Origin: Bacteroidaceae bacterium
Lineage (GTDB): Bacteria; Bacteroidota; Bacteroidia; Bacteroidales; Bacteroidaceae
Assembly: GCA_017429525.1 (NCBI GenBank)
Contig: JAFROT010000048.1
Span: 55,063-119,062, forward strand
Length of the DNA: 64,000 nucleotides
Direction: 5' to 3'
Shown here piece after piece: positions 4,400 through 64,000 of this stretch. Made by a program: the position numbers and the translations under genes. Within the stretch, counting starts at the first letter, position 1, and each line of letters opens with the position of its first letter. The notes beneath the pieces were generated by a model. It saw nothing but the letters and a program-made list of their open reading frames with translations, made no database searches and was not told the DNA's origin.

Positions 4400-4424
4400 G
4401 GTGGGAGAGAGAAAAGTGAAGACT

Positions 4425-4513
4425 GATAAGTGAAAAGCGAGAAACAAGAGTTTCCTGCAAGTTGTGGTATGCAGGCCTTGCAGGAAACTCTTGTTTCTCG
4501 CTTTTCACTTATC
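4425..4513. repeat. Long perfect hairpin, 37-bp arms
   Basis: Arms 4425-4461 and 4477-4513 are exact reverse complements over 37 bp around a 15-nt loop. The arm starts GATAAGTGAAAAGCGAGAAA. It follows the GH36 stop codon and may end transcription, but it is far larger than a usual terminator and lacks a clear T-tract. Similar GTGAAAA-type arms recur near 15.1 and 15.8 kb. Confidence 0.85.
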
Positions 4514-4535
4514 TGCTTTCTTTGTCAGTAAAATG

Positions 4536-6481: not shown

Positions 6482-8338
6482 TTAGGGCGTAGAGTTGAGT
6501 ATTTGGCGCAGTAGGTGGGTTGCGTTCTGGTTGCGCGCCACGCCTGGCGTGATGCGGTAGGTGTAGGTGATCGAGTCGGCGAGTGAGATCTCGAAACAGA
6601 AAGCGTGGAAGCGGTCGGGCTTCTCATCGGCCATGCGCGAGAGCTCGAGGTCGTGGGTGGCGATGACTCCCGTGACGGGCAGCTGTGCGATGTGCTCCAG
6701 GAAGAGGCGCGAGCCGTTGAGCTTGTCGAGCGAGTTGGTGCCTTTGAGAATCTCGTCGAGGATGATGAGCGTGGGTAGGGGTGTGGTGCTGTCGGCGCCC
6801 GCGTGATCATGTCCTGTCCGTGGGCGTACGGCTTGCAGCAGCTGCCTGAGGCGCAGCAGCTCGGCGTTGAAGTAGGAGATGCCATGCGTCAGGTCGTCGG
6901 TCGTGCGCATGGACGTGAAGAGGGCAAAGCGGCTCAGCCTTAGCGTTTCGGCGAACACAGGCAGCCCTGCGCGGGCCAGCACGACATTGATGCCGATGGC
7001 CCTGAGGAAGGTGCTCTTGCCCGCCATGTTGGCGCCTGTGATGATGTAGTAGTGCTGGTCGGCAAGGCTGAAGTCGTTGCGCACGGCCTTGGCGCCTACG
7101 AAGGGATGCCAGAGGCCGAGAGCCTCTAGCGTGACGCTGCCGTCGTCCAGCCATTCGGCGTCGGTGGCCTGCGGCTCGTTGAAGCAGAACGTGCCCATCG
7201 AGACGAAGGCGTCGAATCGTCCTACGGCTTCGACCCACGAACTCATCTGCCCGACGTACCGCTCCTGCCACCGCAGGAAACGGCGTACGAGGAAATAGTC
7301 GCTCAGCGCAAACACGTTGAACACGATGAAGGCCAGGAAGTTGCCTCTGCGGTCGAGCGCATCGAGTATGGCCGTGAGCTCGCGGAAGCTGGCCTGGGCA
7401 TTGTGGCCGTCAGCTGCGAGGTCGTCACGAAGGCTGACGAGCAGCTGACTGCTGAACTGACTCTCGGCAATCAGCCGTACGAGTCGCTGATAGCGCTCCA
7501 AGGCACTGCGAATGCCCGTGAGGACCTGCGTGGCCTGCCGGAGCGAGTGGCTACAGGCTAAGGTGACGAGGGTAAACTGCGCCGTCGCCCAGAGCATGAG
7601 CTGCCCCTCGGTGAGGCGGTCGAGCAGATAAGCTGCGAAGGCTGCGGCAAAGGCAATGATGGCCGTCCATGCCACCACCGACGACCATCTCGTCAGCGGC
7701 CAGCGCGCCACGCTGACGGCCTTGGCTGCGGCTACGACCTGCCCGACGCGCGTCTCGTCGATAGTGCCTTCGAGGCCGTAGGTGCAGAAGGCGGTGCGCA
7801 GCGGCTCGTTGTCGGCCAGTTCGCGGACTGCCTCGCGGCGACGGGCGATGACCTGCAGGGCGGGCGGTTCGGGCTCGCTGAGCATGGCGGCCAGCGCAGC
7901 CTCGCCTCCCGACGTGACGGCGCGGTTGATGCGTTGGAACAGGGAGGCCGTCCCGAAGAGGTCCAGGTCGACCGCGAACGGGTGCTGGTCGTCCACGAAT
8001 TGTCGGCCGTCGGCAAAGGGCGAGTAGTCGCCGTCGAGGTAGGCTCTTTCGCGCTCATAGACATGCAGTCGCCGCTCGCAGTCGGCACGGCGCTGACTCA
8101 TGCTCACGTCCTGCCAGCGGACAGCCAGGTAAGCCGCCAGCGCCACAGCCCCTGCGGCCAGCCATGTCCATGAACGGCCCCACAAGTCGGGGCCCCAGAT
8201 GCTTGCCGCCACGCAGGCTGCCGCCGCGCCAAACAGCAGCAGCTCGGCCGTGACGAAGCGCTTGCCATAGCCTCGCAGGCGGGCCGTCTCGCTCTTCAGC
8301 GTTGCGATTTTCTCTCCGTAGAAAGCCTTCAGTGGCAT
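6482..8338 (-). CDS. Membrane-associated MutS-like ATPase
   Basis: 618 residues. The C-terminal third is a MutS family ATPase: Walker A GANMAGKST, the following FASMRTTDDL-type segment (here FTSMRTTDDLTHG), Walker B LIILDEILKGTN and switch ATHDLELSR. The mismatch-binding and connector domains of true MutS are absent. Instead, hydrophobic pairs at about residues 33-75 and 220-265 look like membrane spans. Such proteins are widespread in Bacteroidota and annotated as mismatch repair, but mismatch recognition is not supported by the sequence. A DNA- or membrane-linked ATPase of unknown role is the safer call. It is 22 nt after DUF4298 and 26 nt before ltaE. Confidence 0.85.
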   Translation of the reverse strand: MPLKAFYGEKIATLKSETARLRGYGKRFVTAELLLFGAAAACVAASIWGPDLWGRSWTWLAAGAVALAAYLAVRWQDVSMSQRRADCERRLHVYERERAYLDGDYSPFADGRQFVDDQHPFAVDLDLFGTASLFQRINRAVTSGGEAALAAMLSEPEPPALQVIARRREAVRELADNEPLRTAFCTYGLEGTIDETRVGQVVAAAKAVSVARWPLTRWSSVVAWTAIIAFAAAFAAYLLDRLTEGQLMLWATAQFTLVTLACSHSLRQATQVLTGIRSALERYQRLVRLIAESQFSSQLLVSLRDDLAADGHNAQASFRELTAILDALDRRGNFLAFIVFNVFALSDYFLVRRFLRWQERYVGQMSSWVEAVGRFDAFVSMGTFCFNEPQATDAEWLDDGSVTLEALGLWHPFVGAKAVRNDFSLADQHYYIITGANMAGKSTFLRAIGINVVLARAGLPVFAETLRLSRFALFTSMRTTDDLTHGISYFNAELLRLRQLLQAVRPRTGHDHAGADSTTPLPTLIILDEILKGTNSLDKLNGSRLFLEHIAQLPVTGVIATHDLELSRMADEKPDRFHAFCFEISLADSITYTYRITPGVARNQNATHLLRQILNSTP

Positions 8339-8360
8339 GGACCGTGAACGTTGATGGATG

Positions 8361-8672
8361 CTAACGAGCCGGTGCCTCGGAGTGGCGGGGCATGCTTTTC
8401 ATCCGTTCGTGCAGCTTGCGGTTGTCGCAGAGCATATTCCAAATGCCATCCTCCGAGAGTACGCCCCGCTTCAGGCCGTCGGGCAGGCGCCCCTCGCGGT
8501 CGGCGTCATAGTCTTGTTTCCAGAGGTCGCTGCCGTAGTAGTCGTCGAGCTCAGCTATCGCCTTCTGGGCAGCCTCGAAGTGGTCGAGGGCCGTTGTCAG
8601 TTCCCTGATAGCCGCCGAGGCGGTGTCGAGGTGACTTTCCATCAGGCGGATGCGTTCAATCTGTTCTGTCAT
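8361..8672 (-). CDS. DUF4298 family protein
   Basis: 103 residues, small, acidic and helical. It matches the DUF4298 pattern: MTEQIERIRLMESHLD at the start, central LDDYYGSDLWKQDYDAD, then LKRGVLSEDGIWNML. The start at 8672 is chosen because the family begins MxQIERI; the frame also stays open upstream through the leader repeat, adding MSRVKLAPNSAMARKGALL. Function is unknown. It is the first gene of the operon with the MutS-like ATPase and ltaE. Its presumed leader carries two copies of the hairpin repeat. Confidence 0.8.
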   Translation of the reverse strand: MTEQIERIRLMESHLDTASAAIRELTTALDHFEAAQKAIAELDDYYGSDLWKQDYDADREGRLPDGLKRGVLSEDGIWNMLCDNRKLHERMKSMPRHSEAPAR

Positions 8673-8692
8673 AGGCTTTTGTTCTTTTAAAA

Positions 8693-8843
8693 GCGCACCT
8701 TTTCTCGCCATGGCAGAGTTTGGAGCAAGCTTCACTCTGCTCATCTGGCTCAGCGAAAACGTTCGCGGAAAGCGCACCTTTTCTTGCCATGGCAGAGCTT
8801 GAAGCAAGCTTCACTCTGCACATTTGGCTTAGCGAAAACGTTC
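8693..8843 (-). repeat. Leader hairpin repeat, two tandem copies
   Basis: Copies at 8693-8764 and 8772-8843 (72 nt each, 79-bp period). Each contains GCAGAG-TT-TGAAGC...GCTTCACTCTGC, an imperfect hairpin with a 2-nt bulge, flanked by GCGCACCTTTTCTCGCC and CGAAAACGTTC. Related copies lie at 12.2-12.5 kb and 15.7 kb. The block lies between the -7 box at 8862 and the DUF4298 start, so in a 5' leader. Confidence 0.9.
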
Positions 8844-8854
8844 ATTTTTGCGTG

Positions 8855-8862
8855 CAAAGATA
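8855..8862 (-). promoter_or_regulatory. TAnnTTTG -7 box for DUF4298 operon
   Basis: TATCTTTG on the minus strand, 12 nt upstream of the first leader repeat. The implied leader is about 175 nt. Confidence 0.6.
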
Positions 8863-8936
8863 CGCTTTTTCATGCAAACTCACGCGCGAAACACTATTTT
8901 TAACGCGCCTACCGATGGTTTTCGTTGATTTCTTCG

Positions 8937-8944
8937 TATCTTTG
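8937..8944 (+). promoter_or_regulatory. TAnnTTTG -7 box for the thioredoxin-fold gene
   Basis: TATCTTTG, 26 nt upstream of the ATG at 8971. A five-codon reading frame (8958-8975) overlaps that start. Confidence 0.6.
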
Positions 8945-8970
8945 CGGCGCAAAACCATGTCTGTGCTCGC

Positions 8971-9456
8971 ATGAAACAAGTTGTCCTCCTCTTCGCCCTC
9001 ACCTTCTTCTGTCTGTCGTTTCATGCGCAGACGGGAGTCAGGAAAGTCTACGACGAAACCCTTAACCCTCTCCATCAGATTGACCAGGCCGTAGCCAAGG
9101 CCGATTCGGTGGGCAAGCGTGTCGTCTGCCAGGTGGGCGGCAATTGGTGCCCGTGGTGCTTGCGCCTTGCCGATTTCCTGGAGCGCGACGAGGCGCTGCG
9201 GCAGTTCGTCCTCGACAACTTCATCTACATCCACGTCAACTATCGCCCCGGTGCCCCGTCGGATGCGGCTAAGGCTGCGCAGGACTCCACGATGCTTGCG
9301 CGCTTAGGCGACCCGACGCACTTCGGCTATCCCGTCCTCGTCGTGCTTGGCGAGCAAGGGCGCGTCCTCCACATCCAGGAGACCGGCTGTCTCGAGAAGG
9401 AGAAGAGCTACGACCGCGACAAGCTCCTACAGTTCTTCCGCCGCTGGAAGAAGTGA
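8971..9456 (+). CDS. Secreted thioredoxin-fold protein with WCPWC motif
   Basis: 161 residues with a signal peptide (residues 1-19, ending SFHA) and a thioredoxin-like domain. The motif GGNWCPWC near residue 50 supplies a CxxC redox pair. A cis-Pro-like GYPVLVVL lies near 118. The protein resembles the thioredoxin_7/DUF255-type exported disulfide proteins of Bacteroidota. It probably handles disulfide exchange in the periplasm; the partner is unknown. It has its own -7 box and a terminator. Confidence 0.82.
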   Translation: MKQVVLLFALTFFCLSFHAQTGVRKVYDETLNPLHQIDQAVAKADSVGKRVVCQVGGNWCPWCLRLADFLERDEALRQFVLDNFIYIHVNYRPGAPSDAAKAAQDSTMLARLGDPTHFGYPVLVVLGEQGRVLHIQETGCLEKEKSYDRDKLLQFFRRWKK

Positions 9457-9483
9457 GGCAGGACATTTAAGGCGAAAAATGGA

Positions 9484-9518
9484 GAATGAGGATGTGCCTG
9501 GCACACCCTCATTCCTTT
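9484..9518. terminator. Terminator between convergent genes
   Basis: Arms 9484-9498 and 9500-9514 (GAATGAGG...CCTCATTC) followed by CTTTT. Confidence 0.75.
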
Positions 9519-9555
9519 TAGCCGTGCATTTCGCATCATCTCCTATCTCATAGCC

Positions 9556-10026
9556 TTAGTTATTAGCCAGCAATTCGTAGGGGATATCGTCGCAGAGCAT
9601 AGAGCAGCCGGGAGTCTCGGGCTCAGGGTCAGCCACAGGTTCAGCCTGGGCTGTCATCACCTGTGGAACGGGCACGTGGACGATGCGCGTCTGGAAAATG
9701 GTGTCGTGGATCACTTCGCGGATGATGGCGGCCTCTCCCCCCGCGTCTCCTGCCAGGGATGGAGCGGATGCCAGCCCAGACTTGTTGCTATCTCCAGCAG
9801 CAGGAGTGATTGTTCCCTCCCTGGCAGGGGGCGCGGGAGGAGAGGCTGGGCTATGTCTGCCCGCCACAAAACCTATTATCAATGCCGCTGCTGTTGCAGC
9901 CCACCACAAAGGCATAGACCTATTGTTGCTGCGCTTCAGTGGATTAGGCTTCACCTGAAGGCGTGCGTTCTGCTCGTCGCGAAGGTCGCGGGCGGTGCTG
10001 ATGATATCGGAATCCGTGAGTCTCAT
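9556..10026 (-). CDS. Single-pass membrane protein, putative anti-sigma partner
   Basis: 156 residues when started at MRLTDSDIIS (10026); an upstream TTG at 10065 would add 13. One membrane span lies at about residues 38-56 (WWAATAAALIIGFVAG). The N-terminus is cytoplasmic and charged, the C-terminus is Pro/Ala-rich and extracytoplasmic. It follows an ECF sigma gene by about 100 nt, the usual place of an anti-sigma or regulatory membrane protein, but no recognised anti-sigma motif is seen. Residues about 60-98 are encoded by a large palindrome (9731-9846), which looks like an insertion. Confidence 0.65.
   Translation of the reverse strand: MRLTDSDIISTARDLRDEQNARLQVKPNPLKRSNNRSMPLWWAATAAALIIGFVAGRHSPASPPAPPAREGTITPAAGDSNKSGLASAPSLAGDAGGEAAIIREVIHDTIFQTRIVHVPVPQVMTAQAEPVADPEPETPGCSMLCDDIPYELLANN
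9731..9846. repeat. Palindromic element inside coding sequence
   Basis: Arms 9731-9759 and 9818-9846 (29 nt) are inverted repeats with 3 mismatches, GC-rich, containing TCCCTGGCAGG. The element is translated in frame as a Pro/Ala/Gly linker. It resembles the element in uvrA at 20648-20743. Confidence 0.8.
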
Positions 10027-10128
10027 ATCTTTGGCTATTTGTGGGTTAGAATTTATTTGTGTCAATTCTCATATCTTTGTTTATGCGTATTCTTGAAAAC
10101 CTTTTGATGCGAATAGGTGTTCAAGTCT

Positions 10129-10695
10129 TTATTCGTATTCGCGTAGTTGTCGCCTGATCACCTGCATCGTCTTGTGCAGCCGGCTTTTGACGGTGCCCTG
10201 TGGCACGTCGAGCACCGAGGCAATCTGCGGCACGGTGAGTTCCTCCTCGTAGCGGAGGGAGAAGAGCAGGCGCAGGGGTGGCGGCAGGCTCTCGAGCACC
10301 TTGGCCAACGCCTGGCGCAAGGTCTCTCGGTCCATTTCTATTTCGATGTCCTCCGTGCAGATGGGCTCTGCGTCGAGCGTAGCCAGGTAGTCGGCGGCGT
10401 AGGCATTCGTGCGGTAGCGGTTGCGGCAGAGGTTGTAGGCGATCGTGAAGAGCCACGTATCCACCCGTCGCCCCTCCACGTATCGGTCGCGTGCTTCAAA
10501 GAGTCGCAGGAAAGCGTCGTGCGTGGCATCGGCTGCCGCCTCCTCGTCGCCGCCCAGCTGGCGGAAGAAGAAGCCTTGCAGGCGGCGGGCATAGCGCCGG
10601 TACAACTCCTCGAAGGCCGCACCGCTGCCGGCGCCGACGCGCGACATCAGCTGCTCGTCAGTCTGCTGGCGGTATGAATGAAAGAGACTTATCAT
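10129..10695 (-). CDS. ECF-type RNA polymerase sigma factor
   Basis: 188 residues. Region 2 spans about 25-90 (EELYRRYARRLQGFFF, DATHDAFLRLFEA, DTWLFTIAYNLCRN). Region 4 spans about 128-182, with LPPPLRLLFSLRYEEEL and the helix-turn-helix VPQIASVLDVPQGTVKSRL. It would redirect RNA polymerase to stress or envelope genes. It starts 17 nt after the stop of the 473-residue exported protein and is followed by the membrane protein at 9556, suggesting one transcription unit. Confidence 0.9.
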   Translation of the reverse strand: MISLFHSYRQQTDEQLMSRVGAGSGAAFEELYRRYARRLQGFFFRQLGGDEEAAADATHDAFLRLFEARDRYVEGRRVDTWLFTIAYNLCRNRYRTNAYAADYLATLDAEPICTEDIEIEMDRETLRQALAKVLESLPPPLRLLFSLRYEEELTVPQIASVLDVPQGTVKSRLHKTMQVIRRQLREYE

Positions 10696-10711
10696 GGTCT
10701 TCTTCGATTAT

Positions 10712-12133
10712 TCATTTTTCACTTTCAATTGGCTCCGTCTTGATGAGCACATGCGTCTTGGCCTTCTGTTCAGCGCGCTTCCGTTGTTGCATGGTCGCGT
10801 CGTCGTCGGGATTCGCCAAGAGATAGGGTTCCTGCACGACCTCAAAGTGCAGCCCTCCTTCGGCCACTCGCTTGATATGGAACATACCGCCTTCGCGACC
10901 ATAGCCGCCTACGTTCTTCTTCACCATCTGGGCCAGTACGTCGGTGAAGAGGCTGTTGAGCCAGGCGTGGCGCTCGGGCGAATGGGCCTTGTAGTAGGGC
11001 ATGAGATCGTTGAGCAGCAAAAGGTAGTTGAAGGCCAAGAAATCCGATGGCCAACCAAAGCGGCGTCTGTAGCCCGTTTCTTGGTCGGGCCGGAACGAGA
11101 GACGCAGGTACTCCAGGCGGTAGCGCTCTTCGACGTTCCTGCGCTTCGCGGCCAGGTTGTCGTAGGGCTTGGCGCTGTAGCGCATCGTCAGCCCTTCGTT
11201 GTAGAGGCAGGCCTTCAGGTCGTCGGGCAGCCCTTCACCCACGATCATGCGTGAGAGCGAACTGGCAGAGAAATAGACGGGGCGCTGCGCGTGCTGGCAG
11301 ATGTGACGGATGTTGAGGCGCTGCTCTTCGAATTGTTCTTCAGTCTTAGCCCATTCACCTTCAGGGTCGAAGAAGTCCTGCGAGAGACCTGCGCTCTGGA
11401 AGAAAGCCTCGAGGTAAGGGCGATAGCTGGCGCAGTTGTCGTTGTAGAGCAGCTTGTCGCGATGCACGCCCATGACCAGCTGGAGAATCAGTTTGCCCGT
11501 GATATCGCCCTCGGTGGCACCGATGTAGATAGCCCCCTCGTCCATCCCCTGCAGTTCGTTGAAGTGGTATTGCAGCTCCTCGGCAGGGTACAGTCCGCTG
11601 TCGAAGTAGCGGGTGAGCAGACGCGTGAGCTGCGTCGAGTCCTCGCCGGCTTTCTCCCGCATCAGGTAGGAGGCCCAGAGCTCGTAGTCGTCGGCCTGCG
11701 CATCCTCGGGCAGCAGCTCGATGGCGCGGTCGGCAAACTGGTTGCGGAAAGCCACATACTCGGCGATGCCATAGGTCTTTCCCCTATATTTCTCATACTC
11801 GTAGCCGCCCTGGTAGGCGCTACAATAAAAGGTGTAGCTCTCGGGGATGGCCTGCTCCATGCGCTGCATGATGTTGCACGCCCGCCTGTAGGCATCCTGC
11901 TGCTCCCGTGGAGTGATGACCTTACGGGCATTATAGATCTCGAAGAGGTTGCGCCACGCCTGCTCGTCCTTCGGCGATGCCTCTACGCGCTCTTCCCAAC
12001 TCCTGTACATCGAGTCGAGTTTCAAGGTATCGAAACTCCACATTTGTGTGTACGTGAAGCGCTCTTCAGTCTGGGCGCCGGTAGTGATGAATGCCGCAAT
12101 GGCAACTATGAATGAGAGAAATGCTCGTTTCAT
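10712..12133 (-). CDS. Exported protein of unknown function
   Basis: 473 residues with a signal peptide (MKRAFLSFIVAIAAFITTGAQ). The body is mainly helical and rich in Tyr, Glu and Arg, without clear catalytic motifs. The segment RPVYFSASSLSRM followed by LYNEGLTMRYS resembles the C-terminal part of DUF2723 proteins, but this is a weak likeness. It is the first gene of the operon that includes an ECF sigma factor and a membrane protein, so it may be a sensor component or target; this is inference. The presumed leader holds three tandem hairpin repeats. Confidence 0.6.
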   Translation of the reverse strand: MKRAFLSFIVAIAAFITTGAQTEERFTYTQMWSFDTLKLDSMYRSWEERVEASPKDEQAWRNLFEIYNARKVITPREQQDAYRRACNIMQRMEQAIPESYTFYCSAYQGGYEYEKYRGKTYGIAEYVAFRNQFADRAIELLPEDAQADDYELWASYLMREKAGEDSTQLTRLLTRYFDSGLYPAEELQYHFNELQGMDEGAIYIGATEGDITGKLILQLVMGVHRDKLLYNDNCASYRPYLEAFFQSAGLSQDFFDPEGEWAKTEEQFEEQRLNIRHICQHAQRPVYFSASSLSRMIVGEGLPDDLKACLYNEGLTMRYSAKPYDNLAAKRRNVEERYRLEYLRLSFRPDQETGYRRRFGWPSDFLAFNYLLLLNDLMPYYKAHSPERHAWLNSLFTDVLAQMVKKNVGGYGREGGMFHIKRVAEGGLHFEVVQEPYLLANPDDDATMQQRKRAEQKAKTHVLIKTEPIESEK

Positions 12134-12220
12134 TGTCTTGTTTTCTTAGCTTTGTTTTTGAAGTTCTGTTTCGTGAAAGCCGTGTGACGTCGTTTTGCTT
12201 TTCTACTACTGCATACACGC

Positions 12221-12496
12221 GAAAAAGCGAAACGTTCGCTAAAAGCGCACCTTTTCTCGCCATGGCAGAGTTTGAAGCAAGCTTCACTCTGCTCATTTGG
12301 CTTAACGAAAACGTTCACGGAAAGTGCACCTTTTCTCGCCATGGCAGAGTTTGAAGCAAGCTTCACTCTGCTCATCTGGCTTGACGAAAACGTTCACGAA
12401 AGCGCACCTTTTCTCGCCATGGCAGAGTTTGAAGCAAGCTTCACTCTGCTCATTTGGCTTAACGAAAACGTTCGCTAAAAGCGCACTTTTTCTCGC
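12221..12496 (-). repeat. Leader hairpin repeat array, three full copies plus partial ends
   Basis: Full 72-nt copies at 12245-12316, 12324-12395 and 12402-12473, with partial units at 12221-12240 (GAAAAAGCGAAACGTTCGC) and 12481-12496. The period is 78-79 bp. Each unit holds GCAGAG...CTCTGC (for example 12265-12292). Same family and orientation as 8693-8843 and 15671-15740. Confidence 0.92.
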
Positions 12497-12506
12497 TTTT
12501 CGTGAG

Positions 12507-12514
12507 CAAAGATA
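12507..12514 (-). promoter_or_regulatory. TAnnTTTG -7 box upstream of the repeat array
   Basis: TATCTTTG on the minus strand, 11 nt before the array. Transcription from here would place the whole array in a leader of about 365 nt before the ATG at 12133. Confidence 0.6.
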
Positions 12515-12674
12515 GTGAATTGTGGCGAAACGAAGGTTATATACGGGTGGGAAAAGTTGTTTGCATCTCACGCTATTCATCATACAGCTGCTCCGACGTC
12601 GTCATCGAACAGATCGCTGCTCGAATGGAGTCACTGCCACCAATGCCCCAACTTTTAAGCGCTATGTACAATCA

Positions 12675-12740
12675 GTTTTCCAACCAGTTGGAAAACCGTT
12701 AGCTCCTATATGCAATCAGTTTTCCAACCGGTTGGAAAAC
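12675..12740. repeat. Two 22-bp palindromes GTTTTCCAACC(A/G)GTTGGAAAAC
   Basis: 12675-12696 and 12719-12740, 44 bp apart start to start, each preceded by CAATCA. The second is a perfect palindrome. In the remainder of 12515-12886 I see no gene or other structure. Confidence 0.85.
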
Positions 12741-12886
12741 CGGTAAGCAATAGACGTGTAGAGCCTTGTCTATATAGAGGCGCACGCCATGAAGCAGTCA
12801 CGAGCAAGTTGTGGATGAGCCATGACCCCGCCATCGACATTCAGCGGAGGTGAGAGGCCCGTAAGAATGAATCCAGAAAGAAAGCA

Positions 12887-12921
12887 ATGCCCCAACACGC
12901 AAGTTGTGCGCATTGGGGCAT
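12887..12921 (-). terminator. Terminator of the 14.9-12.9 kb operon
   Basis: Arms ATGCCCCAA (12887-12895) and TTGGGGCAT (12913-12921) with an inner CGCA/TGCG pair. On the minus strand it is followed by TTGCTTTCTTTC. Confidence 0.65.
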
Positions 12922-12940
12922 GGTTCGTATTCGTCGGTGT

Positions 12941-14017
12941 TCACTTTCGCTTGCGATAGAGGAAACTGCCGATGGCGAGGAGGGTAATGAGGATGGTGAC
13001 GACGTAGGCCCAGGGATGGCTGACGCGCGAAGTGGCATGAATGACGTAGTCTTTAGGGATGAGACGCTCGCCCGTGAAGGGATAGTGGATGATGCCGTCG
13101 GGGGTGAGCGAGCCCGAGCCTGCATCGGTGATGGTGCCGGGCATCTGCAGCGTGTAGGGGACGGCGAGGGCGAAGATGGTCAGGCGATGCGCCAGCTCGT
13201 CGTTTAGCTGTTTGGAAACAGGCGTTTCGTCGTCGAAGAAGGGGGCGTAGGCGTCGGAGTGGAAGAAGTCGCGCATCAGTTGTGAGAGTTCCGTATTGCT
13301 CAGCCAGAGGTCAGCGCCTTCCTTCATGAGGTAGCTGGCTAACGAGTCTTGCAGCTGCACGAAGCGGTCGCGAGGGACGGGAGGCGCGGTGATGGAGTCG
13401 TAGTGATCGGCTATGAAGTCGAAGATGATATGGCAGAAGTTGTCGTTCAGCCAATGGGTGACCTTCGTCTCCATCTCGCTGAGGCGTTCGGCGGCCTCGG
13501 CACCCGTGAGCCCTGCAATCAGGTTGGGTTCGCCCGTGAACCAGTAGCTGAGGATCTGTACGTCGGCGAATGGCAGCGGGAAGGAGTCGGCAAGCCCTGC
13601 AATCGTCTCGGTGAAGTCGTACTCGGTGTAGAACCAGCGGAAACTACGATGCAGCTGGGCGCGGCTCTTCAACGTGCTGCCTCCCAGCATGAGGGGCATC
13701 TGCTCCGCCATCTCTTCAGCGTTGTCGAACAAGTGGCGGAAGGTGGTAGTCACGGTGTCGCCTGCGCCAATGTCGGTATGCGAGTCGTGGAAGGCTCTGA
13801 TGTTCAGGCATTCGGGCAAGGGTTGCGACCATCCGATGTTGCCCTGGCCCCATGCGGAGTCTCGCTGTGCCTGGGTCATCACGTTGCTGTAGCTGACGGC
13901 ACGGATGCAGGTGCCGTTCTCGTTGATGATGGTATGCAGCCTCACGTGTTGGTCTTGGCATGAGAGGAAGATGGCTGCCGAGAGTAGCAGCAATAAGCGC
14001 GAACTAATGGTTTTCAT
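12941..14017 (-). CDS. Lipoprotein with C-terminal membrane span, unknown function
   Basis: 358 residues from MKTISSRLLLLLS (14017). A lipobox (AIFLSC) near residue 19 indicates lipidation. A hydrophobic segment near the C-terminus (WAYVVTILITLLAIGSFLY) followed by RKRK is a likely membrane anchor, an unusual pairing with a lipobox. The large middle part is exported and not recognised. The start overlaps the preceding membrane-protein gene by 14 nt, and this is the third gene of an ECF sigma operon, so a role in signal sensing at the envelope is plausible but unproven. Confidence 0.65.
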   Translation of the reverse strand: MKTISSRLLLLLSAAIFLSCQDQHVRLHTIINENGTCIRAVSYSNVMTQAQRDSAWGQGNIGWSQPLPECLNIRAFHDSHTDIGAGDTVTTTFRHLFDNAEEMAEQMPLMLGGSTLKSRAQLHRSFRWFYTEYDFTETIAGLADSFPLPFADVQILSYWFTGEPNLIAGLTGAEAAERLSEMETKVTHWLNDNFCHIIFDFIADHYDSITAPPVPRDRFVQLQDSLASYLMKEGADLWLSNTELSQLMRDFFHSDAYAPFFDDETPVSKQLNDELAHRLTIFALAVPYTLQMPGTITDAGSGSLTPDGIIHYPFTGERLIPKDYVIHATSRVSHPWAYVVTILITLLAIGSFLYRKRK

Positions 14018-14360
14018 TGATGTGTTTCTTAACAAAGGTGTAACTTAGGGTTTGTTGCCGTCCACGCTGCATGGAGCGCAAGTAGGCGTCCTTAAGGGCT
14101 GTGCCCTGTGGCAGCTCGGCGGCGTATGACGTGGAGCCCTGCAGTGCTCGTTCGTCCGTGATTTGTTGGTAGATGAACAGCCCAACGAGCCATGCTGCAG
14201 CTAAGGCTGAGATGGCCCTTACTGCCATCCAGACACGGCTGGGACGTTCCATTGGCCTCTCTGGGAGATTGACCATAATGCTGTCTGTCAGCGCCTTGCT
14301 GTCGTCGATAGCGGGCTGTTGCCCTTGCAGGCTGTTGAGGATGTCGTCAATCTTATTCAT
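14004..14360 (-). CDS. Small single-pass membrane protein, putative anti-sigma
   Basis: 118 residues. One membrane span at about 45-65 (VRAISALAAAWLVGLFIYQ), a cytoplasmic N-terminus of about 44 residues and an extracytoplasmic tail. It overlaps the end of the sigma gene by 8 nt (the ATG sits within the last codons) and overlaps the start of the lipoprotein gene, so translation is coupled. Position and topology suggest an anti-sigma factor; no conserved zinc or ASD motif is seen. Confidence 0.65.
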   Translation of the reverse strand: MNKIDDILNSLQGQQPAIDDSKALTDSIMVNLPERPMERPSRVWMAVRAISALAAAWLVGLFIYQQITDERALQGSTSYAAELPQGTALKDAYLRSMQRGRQQTLSYTFVKKHINENH

Positions 14361-14901
14361 ATCCCATTTTCATTAAGCGTTCACGTATGGTTTGTCGCGC
14401 TGCGTAGAGGTTGCTCTTCACTTGCTTGGCTGTGAAGCCGGTGGCCTCCTCCACTTCCTGCGACGAGAGTCCTTCCAACTGGGAGAGCGTAAATACAAGT
14501 CTTTGCTTGGGGCTTAGTTTTTCGGCCAACAGGCGCACGATGGCCACCCACTCGCGGTTCTCCAGATCGTGCTGACCGTCGGCAGAAGCGTAGTGCCGCA
14601 ACACGGCTTCATCCTCTGGCAGGGCGATGATGCGGGCGCGGCCCTTCAGATGGTCGAGGCAGAGGCGGGAGACGATGGCATAGAGCCAGGTGGTGAAGCT
14701 TCGCCGAGAGTCGTACTTGCTGATGTTGAGCCAAACCCGCAGAAAAGTCTCCTGCATGACGTCCTTCGCTTCGTCCTCGTCAGCCAGCATCTTCAGCGCT
14801 ACAGAGAACACCATCCTCTGACACCGCTCAACGAGCTGTCGGAATGCGTCCTTGTCGCCCGTCTGGCATCGGCTGATGAGGATGTTGTCAGTCTGCGTCA
14901 T
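14353..14901 (-). CDS. ECF-type RNA polymerase sigma factor
   Basis: 182 residues when started at MTQTDNILIS (14901); the frame is open further upstream. Region 2: RQLVERCQRMVFSVAL, DVMQETFLRVWLN and FTTWLYAIVSRLCLD. Region 4: LSPKQRLVFTLSQLEGLSSQ and VEEATGFTAKQVKSNLYAAR. It is first in a three-gene overlapping operon with a membrane protein and a lipoprotein, the common layout of membrane-signalled ECF systems. Confidence 0.9.
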   Translation of the reverse strand: MTQTDNILISRCQTGDKDAFRQLVERCQRMVFSVALKMLADEDEAKDVMQETFLRVWLNISKYDSRRSFTTWLYAIVSRLCLDHLKGRARIIALPEDEAVLRHYASADGQHDLENREWVAIVRLLAEKLSPKQRLVFTLSQLEGLSSQEVEEATGFTAKQVKSNLYAARQTIRERLMKMGYE

Positions 14902-15129
14902 CGTTTTTTTTATGGAAGTGCGATTGTTTATGGATTTGCTTTCATTCGTGATACGACTGAAGTGGATAAAAGTCAAAATGGATGGGCCTTTTTTTGCGTT
15001 TCACCAAGAGAATCATTACAAAGATACTTCATTTTACAGATAAAAATCATTGGTGAAAAGTGAAAAGGGCGAAAAGTGAAGAATGAAGAGTAAAGAGTGA
15101 AGAATGAAGAATACAGGTTACCTGGTTAG

Positions 15130-15224
15130 AATGACGAATGATGAATGACGAGTGACGAATAAAAATTACCTTCAGAACTTGCAGGTTACTTGTATTCGTC
15201 ACTCGTCATTCATCATTCGTCATT
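15130..15224. repeat. Long perfect hairpin of AATGACGAAT-type words, 32-bp arms
   Basis: Arms 15130-15161 and 15193-15224 are exact reverse complements over 32 bp, made of degenerate AATGA/GACGA words, with a 31-nt spacer. Further GTGAAGAATGAAG words (15055-15115) and ATTCATCATTCGTC (15241-15260) flank it. It lies in the 413-nt gap between the ECF sigma gene and YbjQ, where I see no gene. Confidence 0.85.
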
Positions 15225-15314
15225 AGAAGGCGTAGCCTTTTATTCATCATTCGTCATTCTTTTCGCTCCTGATGGAGGGAGGAGATGCTGGTGACGGCGA
15301 AGGGGTGGCGAGGC

Positions 15315-15632
15315 TCAGATGACGACGGCCGTTCCGCTGGTGGCTACCATGAGCATGGAGCTGGACTGACCGATGGTCTCGTAGTCGACGTCGATGCCTA
15401 CGATAGCGTTGGCGCCGAGGGCGGCAGCGCGCTGCATCATCTCGTTGATGGCAGTGTCCTTGGCCTCGATGAGCACTTTCTCGTAAGAGCTGCTGCGGCC
15501 GCCGAAGAAGTCGGTGAGGCCTGCCATGAAGTCCTTGATAGCGTTGGCACCGATGATGGTTTCGCCTGTGACGATGCCTTTGTACTCGCGAATGGGATGT
15601 CCTTCGATGGTTGGGGTGGTGGTGAGTAACAT
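15315..15632 (-). CDS. YbjQ/UPF0145 family protein
   Basis: 105 residues, the usual length. Family features are visible: YKGIVTGETIIGANAIKD, the central GGRSSSYEKVLIEAKDTAI and the C-terminal GANAIVGIDVDYE, then SSMLMVATSGTAVVI. The family forms cytosolic pentamers and is often called heavy-metal binding (DUF74), but no biochemical role is secure. It is monocistronic. Its leader contains one hairpin repeat copy. Confidence 0.9.
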   Translation of the reverse strand: MLLTTTPTIEGHPIREYKGIVTGETIIGANAIKDFMAGLTDFFGGRSSSYEKVLIEAKDTAINEMMQRAAALGANAIVGIDVDYETIGQSSSMLMVATSGTAVVI

Positions 15633-15670
15633 GATGGGTTGTTGTTTAGATGTTAAACTTGGATTTTCAT

Positions 15671-15740
15671 CCGACCTTTTCTCGCCATGGCAGAGTTTGA
15701 AGCAAGCTTCACTCTGCTCATTTGGCTTAGCGAAAACGTT
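15671..15740 (-). repeat. Leader hairpin repeat, single copy
   Basis: A 70-nt copy of the unit seen at 8.7 and 12.3 kb, including GCAGAGTTTGAAGC and GCTTCACTCTGC, ending CGAAAACGTT. It lies 39 nt upstream of the YbjQ start. A near-consensus -7 box (TATCCTTG, 15780-15773 minus) precedes it. Confidence 0.88.
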
Positions 15741-15802
15741 TGTTTTTTGCTTCTCTTTTGCCCTTTATGCATCAAGGATAGGAGAAGTGACCCTGGGCGC
15801 CG

Positions 15803-15941
15803 ATTTAAGTGAAAAATGAAAGAATGAAAAGTGAAAAATACAAGTTACCTTTAAGTCCTGAAGGTAATCCTTATTCGTTATTCGTCACTCGTCATTCTTC
15901 ATTCTTCATTCAAAGACGATTCTTTCATTTTTCACTTAAAT
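15803..15941. repeat. Long hairpin with AAGTGAAAAATGAA-type arms
   Basis: Outer arms 15803-15825 and 15919-15941 are exact over 23 bp. Inside are GTTACCT and AGGTAAT plus ATTCGTCACTCGTCATTC words shared with the hairpin at 15130-15224. The rest of the YbjQ-TonB receptor gap holds only the leader repeat and the promoter. Confidence 0.82.
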
Positions 15942-16021
15942 AGTTGCTCTTGGCAAGCAGAGTTGTTGTGCAAAAATTGTTAAATAGGCCATGGCTATTT
16001 GTTGTTCTGTTTTTTTTGTGC

Positions 16022-16029
16022 TACCTTTG
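16022..16029 (+). promoter_or_regulatory. -33/-7 promoter for the TonB receptor
   Basis: TACCTTTG with TTTG at 15998-16001, 20 nt apart. The start codon is 36 nt downstream. Confidence 0.7.
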
Positions 16030-16065
16030 CACCCGTTTTTAGTTCAATCAAGCAAATCATAATTG

Positions 16066-18429
16066 ATGAAAAAAGCCTTATTCTTATTTCTTGTCTTCGT
16101 TATCGCTGCAGCCAGTGCTCGGGCACAGCGTGTCACCGTCTGCGGCCACATCACGGACTCACTCTCGCGCGAGACGCTTATAGGCGCAACCGCACGTGCG
16201 CTCGGTAGCCTCGACGGCACCACGTCCAACTCCTTCGGCTTCTACAGTCTTACCCTGCCAGCCGGCGAGGTCGTCCTTAGCTATTCCTATTCGGGCTATC
16301 AACCTACGGAGTTGCGGCTGAGCCTGAAGCGCGACACGGTCATTAATGTCAGCCTGCGGGCTAAGGACTTGATGCGCGAGGTGGTCGTTGAGGCCGACCG
16401 CACGGATGCCGGCCTGTATGCCACCGGCATGGGCATCACCGATGTGTCTGTAAGCCAGATAGAGCATACACCAGCGCTGCTCGGCGAGACCGACGTCATC
16501 CGCACACTGCAGTTGCTGCCCGGCGTGCAGTCGGGCATGAATGGTATGGCAGGCCTTTACGTCCGCGGCGGAGCGGGCGACGAGAATCTCATCATGCTCG
16601 ATGGCGTGCCTATCTACAAGGTCGACCATCTGTTTGGCTTCTTCTCGGTGTTCACGCCCGAGGCTATGAAGAAGGTGACGTTCTACAAAAGTTCGTTTCC
16701 CGCTCGCTACAATGGCCGCCTCTCATCAATCGTCGACGTGCGTACGCGCGACGGCGATATGCAGCACTACCATGGCACCGCAAGCATAGGCCTGCTCAGC
16801 AGTCGCCTGAATTTCGAGGGCCCGATCATCAAGGACCGCACCTCGTTCAGCCTCTCGGCACGCACCAGCTACTGGAGTTGGGTGGCGCGCCCTTTCATGC
16901 CCAAGGACTCGAAGTTCGGCTATACGTTCTACGACCTTAATGCCAAACTCAACCACCGCTTCTCCGACCGCGACCGCCTCTACCTGAGCTTCTATCAGGG
17001 GCAGGACCGCCTAAAGAGCGACTATGAAGACTACTGGGGGGACCACGGCGAGTACACCGAGCGCTATGGCGACCGAATGCACTGGGGCAATACGTTGGCC
17101 TCGCTGCGCTGGAACCATGTCTTCACCGACCAGCTCTTTGCCAATGCCACTGTCTCGACGAACAACTATAAGATGCGCCTCAAGAGCTACGACAATCTGG
17201 CTGAGCCCAGCGGCGCGGCTGATAATGCTTCGTCAAAATACAATTCGAGTATTCACGACCTAACGGCTCAGATCGACTTCGACTACGACCCGCGTCCGCA
17301 GCACCGCATACAGTTCGGAGCGGCCTATACGCGCCACAACTTCAGACCGGAGACCTCGTCGAACCAGCTGATACAGTCGTCGGCAGGCAAAGTGCTGATC
17401 GACACGGCTTACATTATGCCCGCCCGGAAGATCCCCGCCGATGAGGCTATGGTGTATGCCGAGGACAACTGGCGGGTGACACGTGCCCTGCACCTGACGC
17501 CGGGACTGGCATATACGCTCTTCCACGTCGACGGCACCACATACAGCGCCTTGCAGCCGCGCCTGTCGCTGCGGTGGCAGGCGGCCGAGGCGTGGGCCTT
17601 GAAGGCGGCCTACTCTGAGATGGCGCAGTACATCCACCTGCTCACGTCGATGCCCATCGCCATGCCTACCGACCTGTGGGTGCCCATCACCCGCAATATC
17701 AAGCCGGAGCGGGCCAGCCAGTACTCCTTGGGCGCTTATTTCACAGGCCTTAAGGGCTGGGAGATGTCGGTCGAGGGCTACTACAAGAATCTTCGCAACG
17801 TCCTCGAGTACCGCGACGGCATGAGCTTCTTCGGCTTCTCGGGCTCGTGGGAGAACCTTGTGGCCGTAGGCACAGGACGTGCGGCGGGGCTTGAGTTCCT
17901 GCTTCGCAAGACCAGCGGCCGCACTACGGGTTGGCTGGCATATACGCTGGCCAAGAGCACCCGCAAGTTCAGCCGCGACAGCGGAGTGAACGACGGGCAT
18001 CGCTTCCCCTTCACCTTCGACCGCCGCCACACGCTGAACCTTGTGGTCAACCACAAGTTCTCGCAGCGCCTCGACCTCGACGGCACATGGATGTTCCATT
18101 CGGGCGAAGCAGCTACCCTGGCCACGCAAAAAGGTATAGTGATGAACCCCGACGACGGCACGCTGAAAGAGGTTTACTATGTGCCCTCGCGCAACAACTA
18201 TCGTCTGCCGTGCAGTCACACCCTCTCGCTCGGGCTGAACATTCGCAAGCAACTCAAATGCAAAGCCGAACGGACGTGGAACATCAGCCTCTACAATGCC
18301 TACAACGCCATGAATCCTACGCTCGTCTATCGCAAGGAAGACAACGTGGGCAACTACCGCCACGACAAGCTGACGAAGTACACGCTGCTGCCGTGCATAC
18401 CCTCGTTCACTCTAACTTATAAATGGTAA
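16066..18429 (+). CDS. TonB-dependent receptor with carboxypeptidase-like N-domain
   Basis: 787 residues. A signal peptide ends ASARAQ. A CarboxypepD_reg-like beta-sandwich spans about 22-105 (VCGHITDSLSRETLIGATA), and a plug domain about 110-220 (LYVRGGAGDENLIMLDGVPIY, ARYNGRLSSIVDVRTRDG). A 22-strand-type barrel fills the rest, ending SFTLTYKW with a terminal aromatic. ATG at 16066 is preferred over the adjacent TTG at 16063. It would import a substrate across the outer membrane with TonB energy. The DUF4249 lipoprotein follows by 4 nt, a recurrent pair in Bacteroidota. No SusD is present, so the ligand is probably not a Sus-type glycan. Confidence 0.92.
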   Translation: MKKALFLFLVFVIAAASARAQRVTVCGHITDSLSRETLIGATARALGSLDGTTSNSFGFYSLTLPAGEVVLSYSYSGYQPTELRLSLKRDTVINVSLRAKDLMREVVVEADRTDAGLYATGMGITDVSVSQIEHTPALLGETDVIRTLQLLPGVQSGMNGMAGLYVRGGAGDENLIMLDGVPIYKVDHLFGFFSVFTPEAMKKVTFYKSSFPARYNGRLSSIVDVRTRDGDMQHYHGTASIGLLSSRLNFEGPIIKDRTSFSLSARTSYWSWVARPFMPKDSKFGYTFYDLNAKLNHRFSDRDRLYLSFYQGQDRLKSDYEDYWGDHGEYTERYGDRMHWGNTLASLRWNHVFTDQLFANATVSTNNYKMRLKSYDNLAEPSGAADNASSKYNSSIHDLTAQIDFDYDPRPQHRIQFGAAYTRHNFRPETSSNQLIQSSAGKVLIDTAYIMPARKIPADEAMVYAEDNWRVTRALHLTPGLAYTLFHVDGTTYSALQPRLSLRWQAAEAWALKAAYSEMAQYIHLLTSMPIAMPTDLWVPITRNIKPERASQYSLGAYFTGLKGWEMSVEGYYKNLRNVLEYRDGMSFFGFSGSWENLVAVGTGRAAGLEFLLRKTSGRTTGWLAYTLAKSTRKFSRDSGVNDGHRFPFTFDRRHTLNLVVNHKFSQRLDLDGTWMFHSGEAATLATQKGIVMNPDDGTLKEVYYVPSRNNYRLPCSHTLSLGLNIRKQLKCKAERTWNISLYNAYNAMNPTLVYRKEDNVGNYRHDKLTKYTLLPCIPSFTLTYKW

Positions 18430-40433: not shown

Positions 40434-40584
40434 TTATTCGGTCGCGACCGAATAACGGATACATACGGTCGCGCAGGTTGATACATATGGTCGCGCAGGC
40501 CGATGCGAACGGTCGCGCAGGCCGATACGTATGGACGCGTAGGCCGATACATATGGACGCGCAGGCCGATGCGAATAGAAACGG
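40434..40584. repeat. 22-bp palindrome followed by a 22-bp tandem repeat array
   Basis: 40434-40455 is a perfect 22-bp palindrome (TTATTCGGTCG and its complement). From 40458 five 22-bp units follow, consensus GATACATATGGTCGCGCAGG plus CC: 40458, 40480, 40502, 40524 and 40546, then a partial at 40568. Units differ by a few bases. No gene is seen in the 550-nt gap. Confidence 0.9.
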
Positions 40585-40707
40585 TTCTTGAGGCGCATCG
40601 TGAAGGATGGTGCTGCAAATAGATGCTGACGGCAAGATAGATGAGGGTTATTTCGGCGTTTTGTGCAATTTCTTTGCATTTTGTTCGTCTATATGGTATA
40701 AAAGATA

Positions 40708-56621: not shown

Positions 56622-56681
56622 AAAACACCACTTATTCAGAGAAATAAATACAATTGGCCTGAATGATTGCTTCACCGGAGC

Positions 56682-56811
56682 CATCGCGTATATATCTTCA
56701 GGTCATCGCGTATATATGTGCAAGCCTTCACGTATATACGTACAAGCCTTCACATATATATGTACAAGCCTTCACATATATATGTATAGGTCTTCACATA
56801 TATATGTACCC
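56682..56811. repeat. 22-bp tandem repeat array with ATATATGTA core
   Basis: Six 22-bp units begin at 56682, 56704, 56726, 56748, 56770 and 56792 (last partial). Consensus CTTCACATATATATGTACAA plus GC. Both the period and the core resemble the reverse complement of the array at 40458. The rest of the 323-nt gap holds only the terminator below. Confidence 0.9.
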
Positions 56812-63904: not shown

Positions 63905-64000
63905 CGAGTTCTTTAATTCGTCTTTCGTCATTCATCATTCATCATTAATCATTCATCATTCTTCATTCGTCATTCGTCTTTCGTCTTTCTTCATTCATCA
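63905..64000. repeat. ATTCATCATTCGTC-type repeat words at the window edge
   Basis: Roughly a dozen degenerate 7-10-nt words (TTCATCATTC, TTCGTCTTTC, ATTCTTCATT) run to the end of the window. They match one arm of the hairpins at 15.1-15.9 kb; the other arm is presumably beyond the edge. Confidence 0.7.

Follow-up and report, generated by a model that had tools for sequence, protein, structure and literature searches.

A small structured repeat of Prevotella-type bacteria, probably mobile, that inserts with fixed polarity 3′ of AAC

In a 64,000-nucleotide stretch of a Bacteroidaceae bacterium genome (GenBank assembly GCA_017429525.1, contig JAFROT010000048.1, positions 55,063 to 119,062; "the window" below), a hairpin-forming unit of ∼78 nt occurs in three arrays of two, three, and one copies, all on the minus strand and pointing toward a DUF4298 gene, a gene for a 473-residue exported protein, and a YbjQ gene, respectively (Table 1). 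These three genes are unrelated to each other. We conclude that the unit is very probably a small, nonautonomous, structured mobile repeat that inserts with fixed polarity 3′ of AAC, and not a dedicated leader switch. A first-pass annotation had described the unit as a 72-nt hairpin of 5′ leaders and reported six copies, each oriented in the same way toward its downstream gene. Copy number and orientation are confirmed by a scan for the core hairpin with up to 3 mismatches, which returned exactly 6 copies in the window and none in 100 shuffles. The modal unit length is instead 78 nt (74 of 138 units).

The sense-strand consensus of 34 copies, GAACGTTTTCGTTAAGCCAAATGAGCAGAGTGAAGCTTGCTTCAACTCTGCCATGGCGAGAAAAGGTnGGATGAAATCCAAC, starts with GAACGTTTTCG and ends with RYYYCAAC. 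No terminal inverted repeats are present, as the ends read AAC↓GTTTTCG (arrows mark junctions) and RYYYCAAC. In its fold, an outer stem encloses a middle stem (GCCA/TGGC), which in turn encloses an inner hairpin of 11 bp; a small tail hairpin (GGAT-GAA-ATCC) comes right before the final AAC. Among the 34 distinct copies, pairing is found in 92.2% of cells, with double-sided changes at 17 of 27 pairs, and none of 500 shuffled alignments matched any of five structure measures. Sliding the partners by 1 to 3 columns reduced paired cells to 32.5 to 46.6%, a control that favors the real fold because the structure was derived from the same sequences used for testing; double-sided changes at 9 of the 11 inner-hairpin pairs go beyond what this advantage covers. 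The compensatory stem changes that the first-pass annotation had proposed to look for are thus present. On the sense strand of the core stems, G-T exceeds A-C (118:83, p 0.016, from 251 distinct rows whose cells are not independent). This slight excess points to folding of the sense strand, and it is equally compatible with RNA and with single-stranded DNA. The first-pass annotation assigned the unit to no named family, in agreement with a search of positions 8000 to 16200 against Rfam 15, in which 14 matches at E up to 5 were all below gathering score and none lay over an element copy. A tRNA-like element was rejected (ARAGORN, 0 in positions 8000 to 16000), and searches of a literature collection for mobile repeats, palindromes, and leader elements of Prevotella, Bacteroidetes, or Bacteroidales brought up no description of the element.

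Filled and empty versions of the same sites reveal that the unit enters directly 3′ of AAC and itself ends in AAC. At locus L090 (genome G076), it sits in the reading frame of a gene judged by eye to be GH2-like, between ...ERQKL and NFN..., and leaves the frame open. Orthologs that are 76 to 81% identical lack the element and have an uninterrupted frame at 19 of 19 loci. The empty site reads, for example, GAGCGACAGAAGCTC-AATTTTAAT in L459, and the filled site reads GAGCGACAGAAGCTCAAC↓GTTTTCG...GAAGCTC↓AACTTCAACG. On a pMMCAT plasmid (L438), the element lies within sequence that matches IS1380-family transposase genes found on other plasmids, where the two closest of the five uninterrupted copies examined (left part 94.7 and 95.4% identical) read GATGGAAACGAAC↓ATTTGTG and the filled site reads GATGAAAACGAAG↓GTTTTCG...ATGAAATGGAAC↓TTTTGTG. 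Finally, in one species group, a ∼240-nt miniature inverted-repeat transposable element (MITE) with inverted ends CCCAAATCGGTCATTAG and CTAATGACCGATTTGGG has the element inserted at either of two positions (L120, L132, L141, L142, L144, L146, L148, L156, and L166). The clean pair there is GGAAC↓CCCATT when empty and GGAAC↓element...TTCAAC↓CCCATT when filled.

We described the target and surroundings of the element from 255 arrays, reduced to 193 nonredundant ones by shared 14-mers in 60-nt flanks and by a minimum flank length. One match (L161:4546) of 121 was left out, as were nine partial, cut, or weak ones of 183; the set keeps 2 of the 3 window arrays, and window copies are placed ∼2 nt off the model ends. 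The left flank is A-rich at positions −5 to −2 with mostly G or C just before AAC, giving a target of approximately AAAANSAAC, and the right end is mostly YYCAAC. Because an inserted unit brings the target motif back at its right end, another unit can enter there, giving head-to-tail arrays. Accordingly, unit number at one and the same site differs between loci: L154 holds one unit and L158 two, L155 and L156 hold one and L118 and L150 two, and L094 holds one at the site where the window holds three.

Arrays are also clustered. A second array is present in 20 of 117 anchored loci, amounting to 21 extra arrays in 0.85 Mb, where ∼9 would be expected at the density of the richest genome (at least 30 in 2.8 Mb). 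The window's own genome (86% complete, 56 contigs) has seven good copies, six of them in the window and the seventh at C50:4722-4805, so that 3 of its 4 element sites fall within 7.1 kb (chance of ∼6e-5 under random placement). Based on this clustering, local hopping best accounts for the presence of three arrays within 7 kb. Separately, locus L097 contains inverted two-unit arrays at 2421-2584 and 8337-8500, 5.8 kb apart, that share ∼235 nt at 97% identity, extending past the element. In G417, a near-complete 2.5-Mb genome with at least 11 element matches, 6 of the 7 listed positions (L384 to L387) are within 130 kb of one contig (C3, 1.59 to 1.72 Mb).

The first-pass annotation had placed every copy in a presumed 5′ leader. 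Across the 193 arrays, for which genes were taken from a codon-based caller and both neighbors were defined in 107, most copies lie outside leaders, an outcome that the annotation itself had named as refuting its reading. A sense gene starts within 100 nt downstream of 45 arrays (antisense counterpart, 11), and a sense gene ends within 100 nt upstream of, or overlaps, 51 (antisense counterpart, 16), for a total of 27 antisense neighbors. The six arrays inside genes are all in sense orientation, with the frame open through the element in each, and in one (L327) the frame ends soon after and the gene looks shortened. What does hold beyond the window is a bias: sense-sense intervals outnumber antisense-antisense ones by 52 to 17 (p 3e-5), and TAnnTTTG, the −7 box of Bacteroidetes, occurs 20 times in the sense direction 0 to 60 nt upstream of arrays, whereas three mirrored controls gave 6, 7, and 7 occurrences. 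Only 10 arrays combine such an upstream box with a sense start within 150 nt. In the window itself, where a box or near-box had been reported before every copy, a perfect TATCTTTG precedes the DUF4298 and 473-residue arrays, and the YbjQ array is preceded by TAAAGGGC only, for which "near TAnnTTTG" was a generous description.

It had further been argued that random insertion would not choose orientation so consistently. The target motif does much of the choosing. When AAC sites in the same loci were scored with the flank profile, with elements masked, the sense:antisense ratios of high-scoring sites were 87:33 within 100 nt upstream of genes, 63:45 downstream of genes, and 499:178 inside them. 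The observed 45:11 before genes and 6:0 inside genes do not differ from this target bias (p 0.35 for each). The leader position and orientation of the window arrays are therefore largely explained by a target motif that is itself sense biased near gene starts. Two other proposals, a mobile promoter-leader cassette and a leader-peptide system, are unlikely, as a −7 box lies inside only 3 of the 193 arrays in sense and 5 in antisense orientation, and 29 of 138 units have an open ATG frame. We also observed copies near apparent extracytoplasmic function (ECF) sigma/anti-sigma operons in different species (L074, L096, L109, L130, and L352).

Orthologous leaders do not share the element. We compared 30 loci per gene, the window included; three of the 30 loci of the 473-residue gene had less than 250 nt upstream. 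The element was before the gene at 0 of 29 other DUF4298 loci and 0 of 29 other YbjQ loci (one YbjQ ortholog, in G106, has a copy downstream of the gene), and among the 26 other loci of the 473-residue gene with at least 250 nt upstream there was 1 clear case (G034) and 2 weak ones of 25 bits (L210 and L211). Association with leaders is thus not a conserved feature of the orthologs. We considered the 473-residue gene as a conserved partner and rejected it: the element is upstream in G000 and G034 and in the more remote homologs of G040 and G131, and it was not found upstream of the homologs in G082, G059, G006, and G092.

The closest orthologs of the 473-residue gene (79 to 86% identical) lack the element and have kept the native leader. 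Past GAAC (GTGTATGCWGTWRTAGAAARGCRA...GACGTC), this leader is conserved across the seven species aligned, whether or not the element is present, indicating that the operon has a leader of its own that is independent of the element. Element-free orthologs also retain a promoter-like box (G082 and G006) and a stub, GCGAGAAAAGGTGCAnTT...TGAACG, that matches the right end of the element (G082 and G059). The stub would mean either that an element was lost between direct repeats or that the element targets this leader by similarity. As a separate observation, the native leader (window positions 12117 to 12236, minus strand; L199 to L204) is strongly conserved at the DNA level in seven species whose proteins are 59 to 86% identical to that of the window, and it is possibly a regulatory leader in its own right; an ECF sigma gene follows the 473-residue gene, whose product has no Pfam match at E 0.01.

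The element is widespread. It was detected in 66 of 139 congeneric genomes by blastn and in 115 of 139 by a covariance model at E 1e-3, with at least 30 matches in the richest (G111). At E 1e-5, the model found it in 157 of 399 genomes of the family, representing 18 of 30 genera. The genus scan scored up to 32 candidates per genome and the family scan up to 11, and the copy numbers given are therefore minimum values. Among the named hosts are Prevotella conceptionensis, Hoylesella loescheii, Xylanibacter rodentium, Palleniella, and Leyella lascolaii, as well as rumen metagenome-assembled genomes (MAGs) labeled Bacteroidaceae or Prevotellaceae. Among the matches listed, four stretches with good copies (L259, L270, L309, and L280) come from records titled Bacillota or Ruminococcus flavefaciens MAGs, which are either mislabeled or mixed bins or cases of real spread. 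Exact or nearly exact core patterns had no hit in genome contigs or in viral contigs; a looser core pattern matched at least 119 genomic stretches and four viral contigs in IMG/VR. Twenty-six plasmid records match. All but two are from Bacteroides, Parabacteroides, and Phocaeicola, and these 24 all show 84.6% identity (the one opened is a pMMCAT plasmid); the remaining two are from Prevotella nigrescens and Segatella hominis.

In our reading, the element inserts just 3′ of AAC after an A-rich stretch, and its own end then offers a target for a second element, building head-to-tail arrays. Mobilization would require the strand to fold, and compensatory changes would preserve the three nested stems and the tail hairpin for that reason. 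The folded single strand would probably be cut and joined by a nuclease or recombinase acting in trans, as for IS200/IS605 or repetitive extragenic palindromic (REP) elements. The window insertions would have arisen by hopping over short distances into AAC targets on the sense strand, in A-rich sequence close to promoters and start codons, with any effect on expression being secondary; regulation at individual leaders is possible.

The tail hairpin may have a part in target choice. Its arms covary freely (GGAT/ATCC, GAAT/ATTC, GAGC/GCTC, GGAC/GTCC, and CCAT/ATGG), and the 3′ arm runs directly into the terminal AAC. From 108 arrays, of which 102 were parsed, we retained 82 after removing alike flanks, and in these the left flank is more identical to the array's own tail than in permuted pairings (z of 2.0 to 4.3 over 2 to 20 positions). 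The likeness is carried mostly by L090, L137, L123, L108, L078, L112, L128, L094, and the window. L090 is the clearest case: its 19 empty orthologs show that sequence of the GAAGCTC type is native before AAC. The target there is GAGCGACAGAAGCTC-AAC and the tail is GAGC-GAA-GCTC-AAC, such that the 3′ arm is identical to the target and the 5′ arm, GAGC, is complementary to it. Tentatively, and at rather long odds, the 5′ arm might be a guide that pairs with the target strand, with insertion copying target bases into the tail and so reprogramming it. The likeness could also reflect a ∼10-nt duplication decayed on one side, or shared A-rich composition. A long target-site duplication as a rule was rejected. 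Flank and tail are more alike than in permuted pairs, yet they disagree at the base adjoining AAC in 53 of 82 arrays, about the number given by permutation (55.5).

Several observations weigh against a simple mobile repeat with an AAC target. At the IS1380 site, the three more distant uninterrupted copies read GAC (L442 and L465, both GGAC) or TAC (L443, GTAC), and the left side of the filled site is AAG, so that the evidence for AAC at this site comes from the two closest copies and from the right junction. At the second MITE position the picture is less clear, as the empty version reads GCAC. A duplication longer than AAC is possible: the 10-nt GAAGCTCAAC stands on both sides of the element in L090, and the two flanks at the MITE site agree in 9 of 11 nt. 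The G-T excess is reversed in the outer stem of one alignment (11:26). The stub in the two closest orthologs of the 473-residue gene makes loss as possible as noninsertion at that leader. The sense bias behind genes (51:16) exceeds that of the target motif (p 0.022), and together with the enrichment of −7 boxes upstream of arrays this would allow for the element being selected as part of transcripts, both behind genes and downstream of promoters. Lastly, across 225 loci, no gene family recurs beside elements beyond shared orthologous loci. A recurrent neighbor gene was thus rejected as the enzyme, the largest families (an ECF sigma factor and an aminotransferase-like gene, judged by eye) being present at only 6 of 225 loci, mostly orthologous ones.

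Could the unit be a cis-acting regulatory RNA of 5′ leaders, riboswitch-like or protein binding, that has spread as a leader module? Stem covariation, the sense-strand preference for G-T over A-C that most stems show, the sense and −7-box biases, and the placement of all three window arrays in leaders would suit such an RNA. We nonetheless consider it improbable, given that more arrays follow a sense gene than precede a sense start and six are inside genes, that the orthologous leaders are nearly all without the element, that the downstream genes are unrelated, and that empty counterparts exist for insertions into a reading frame, a transposase relic, and a MITE. A mobile repeat co-opted at some sites as a 5′ or 3′ mRNA structure, affecting stability, attenuation, or translation, has a better, though still modest, chance of being correct. 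The excess of sense copies behind genes and the presence of the element upstream of four homologs of the 473-residue gene speak for it; the closest orthologs, with a conserved native leader and no element, speak against it.

A satellite of REP/RAYT (REP-associated tyrosine transposase) or IS200/IS605 systems, moved by a Y1 (HUH) transposase, appears rather unlikely to us, despite several resemblances. IS200/IS605 elements use single-strand, peel-and-paste transposition (PMC6006769). Like them, our element shows polar insertion 3′ of a short target, a related right-end sequence, subterminal hairpins, and no terminal inverted repeats, and its head-to-tail arrays and the tail arm complementary to the terminal RYYYAAC also fit. 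In contrast, no tnpA or tnpB was seen, the AAC target has an A-rich context, and the element is one composite hairpin and not two separate end hairpins. IS200/IS605 targets are not duplicated, whereas AAC (10 nt in L090) is on both sides here, and the possible ∼10-nt duplication would speak against an IS200-like route. Like REP/RAYT elements (PMC6006769 and PMC3733652; for example, those of subclass 2.6 of Bacteroidetes), the element is short, noncoding, structured, and mostly intergenic, with structure kept better than sequence. It differs in its ∼78-nt length (longer than the REPs described), in its three-part fold, in often being single or head to tail, and in having no conserved GTAG or CGTC foot on a 20- to 65-nt hairpin.

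Y1 genes also do not track the element. A PF01797 (Y1) match was found in 36 of the 139 congeneric genomes, and the median element copy number is 3 both in these and in the other 103 (p 0.55), most of the assemblies in this test being incomplete. Among 20 genomes selected for the element (at least 4 to at least 30 matches), 8 have PF01797 at E 1e-3 (7 over the cutoff) and 12 have none; of the four that are 99% complete, two have it (G417 and G241) and two do not (G306 and G170). No full element was seen at any of 30 Y1 loci, the only hit being 28 nt of the inner hairpin (24 bits) in L178. For subclass 2.6 Y1 genes of Bacteroidetes, PMC6006769 mentions adjacent "atypical secondary structures," and our comparison with those is limited to this negative result at the 30 Y1 loci.

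An integron-like cassette, in which an attC-type folded site would be recombined at secondary AAC/GTT sites by a tyrosine recombinase, is very improbable. As in attC, the site is folded, its right end fits RYYYAAC in many copies, and AAC is at both junctions; the arrays are tandem. The element has no enclosing R′′/R′ boxes (RYYYAAC...GTTRRRY) around the main hairpin, however, and the pairing partner of the terminal RYYYAAC is 3 nt upstream, in the tail hairpin. No IntI integrase passed the curated TIGR02249 cutoff in any of the 20 genomes, all of which have tyrosine recombinases matching below it. The unit can also be compared with two other kinds of small repeat. Rickettsia palindromic elements are likewise short palindromic repeats that insert inside genes with the frame kept open (6 of 6 arrays here, in sense), but they differ in host phylum and sequence, and the present element is mostly intergenic. 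It shares small size, dispersal, and nonautonomy with MITEs, but has no terminal inverted repeats and is itself a passenger in a true MITE.

Table 1. The six element copies in the window and the features next to them
Feature	Position	Strand	Evidence
Element copy 2, DUF4298 leader array	8679-8764	-	Covariance model R1, 79.5 bits
Element copy 1, DUF4298 leader array, adjoining promoter-like box	8768-8843	-	Covariance model R1, 75.1 bits
TATCTTTG, −7-box-like, upstream of DUF4298 array	8855-8862	-	Read from sequence
DUF4298 gene, downstream of array 1	8361-8672	-	PF14131, E 2.1e-25
Element copy 3, 473-residue protein leader array	12232-12316	-	Covariance model R1, 100.7 bits
Element copy 2, 473-residue protein leader array	12322-12395	-	Covariance model R1, 81.3 bits
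Element copy 1, 473-residue protein leader array	12396-12473	-	Covariance model R1, 83 bits
Stub AAAGCGAGAAAAAGTGCGCTTTTAGC, immediately before first GAAC	12474-12499	-	Similar stub in two element-free orthologs
TATCTTTG, −7-box-like, upstream of 473-residue protein array	12507-12514	-	Read from sequence
473-residue exported protein gene, downstream of array 2	10712-12133	-	Open reading frame (ORF)
Single element copy, YbjQ leader	15656-15741	-	Covariance model R1, 94.6 bits
YbjQ gene, downstream of array 3	15315-15632	-	PF01906, E 1.4e-38

The window contains other repeats. Two copies of a 40-nt palindromic unit (GTTTTCCAACCAGTTGGAAAAC) lie at 12662-12745, between the array of the 473-residue gene and the next gene. 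Low-complexity GAATGAAGAATGACGA-type repeats form long intergenic inverted repeats (e.g., 88-nt arms with 5-nt spacing) at 15087-15267, 15862-15918, 63912-63989, and 4418-4520, and two arrays of diverged 22-nt tandem repeats (GATACATAYGGWCGCGCAGGCC and AGCCTTCACRTATATAYGTACA) are found at 40458-40597 and 56679-56810.

The element is apparently an undescribed, widespread small mobile repeat of Prevotella-type bacteria that plasmids of Bacteroides, Parabacteroides, and Phocaeicola carry as well. In these genomes, it may account for some of the spurious short ORFs and contig breaks and for some leader hairpins that lack an explanation. If its tail acts as a target guide, this would be a new base-pairing mode of insertion. 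More generally, the window offers a caution, in that the same hairpin in several leaders can result from target preference alone.

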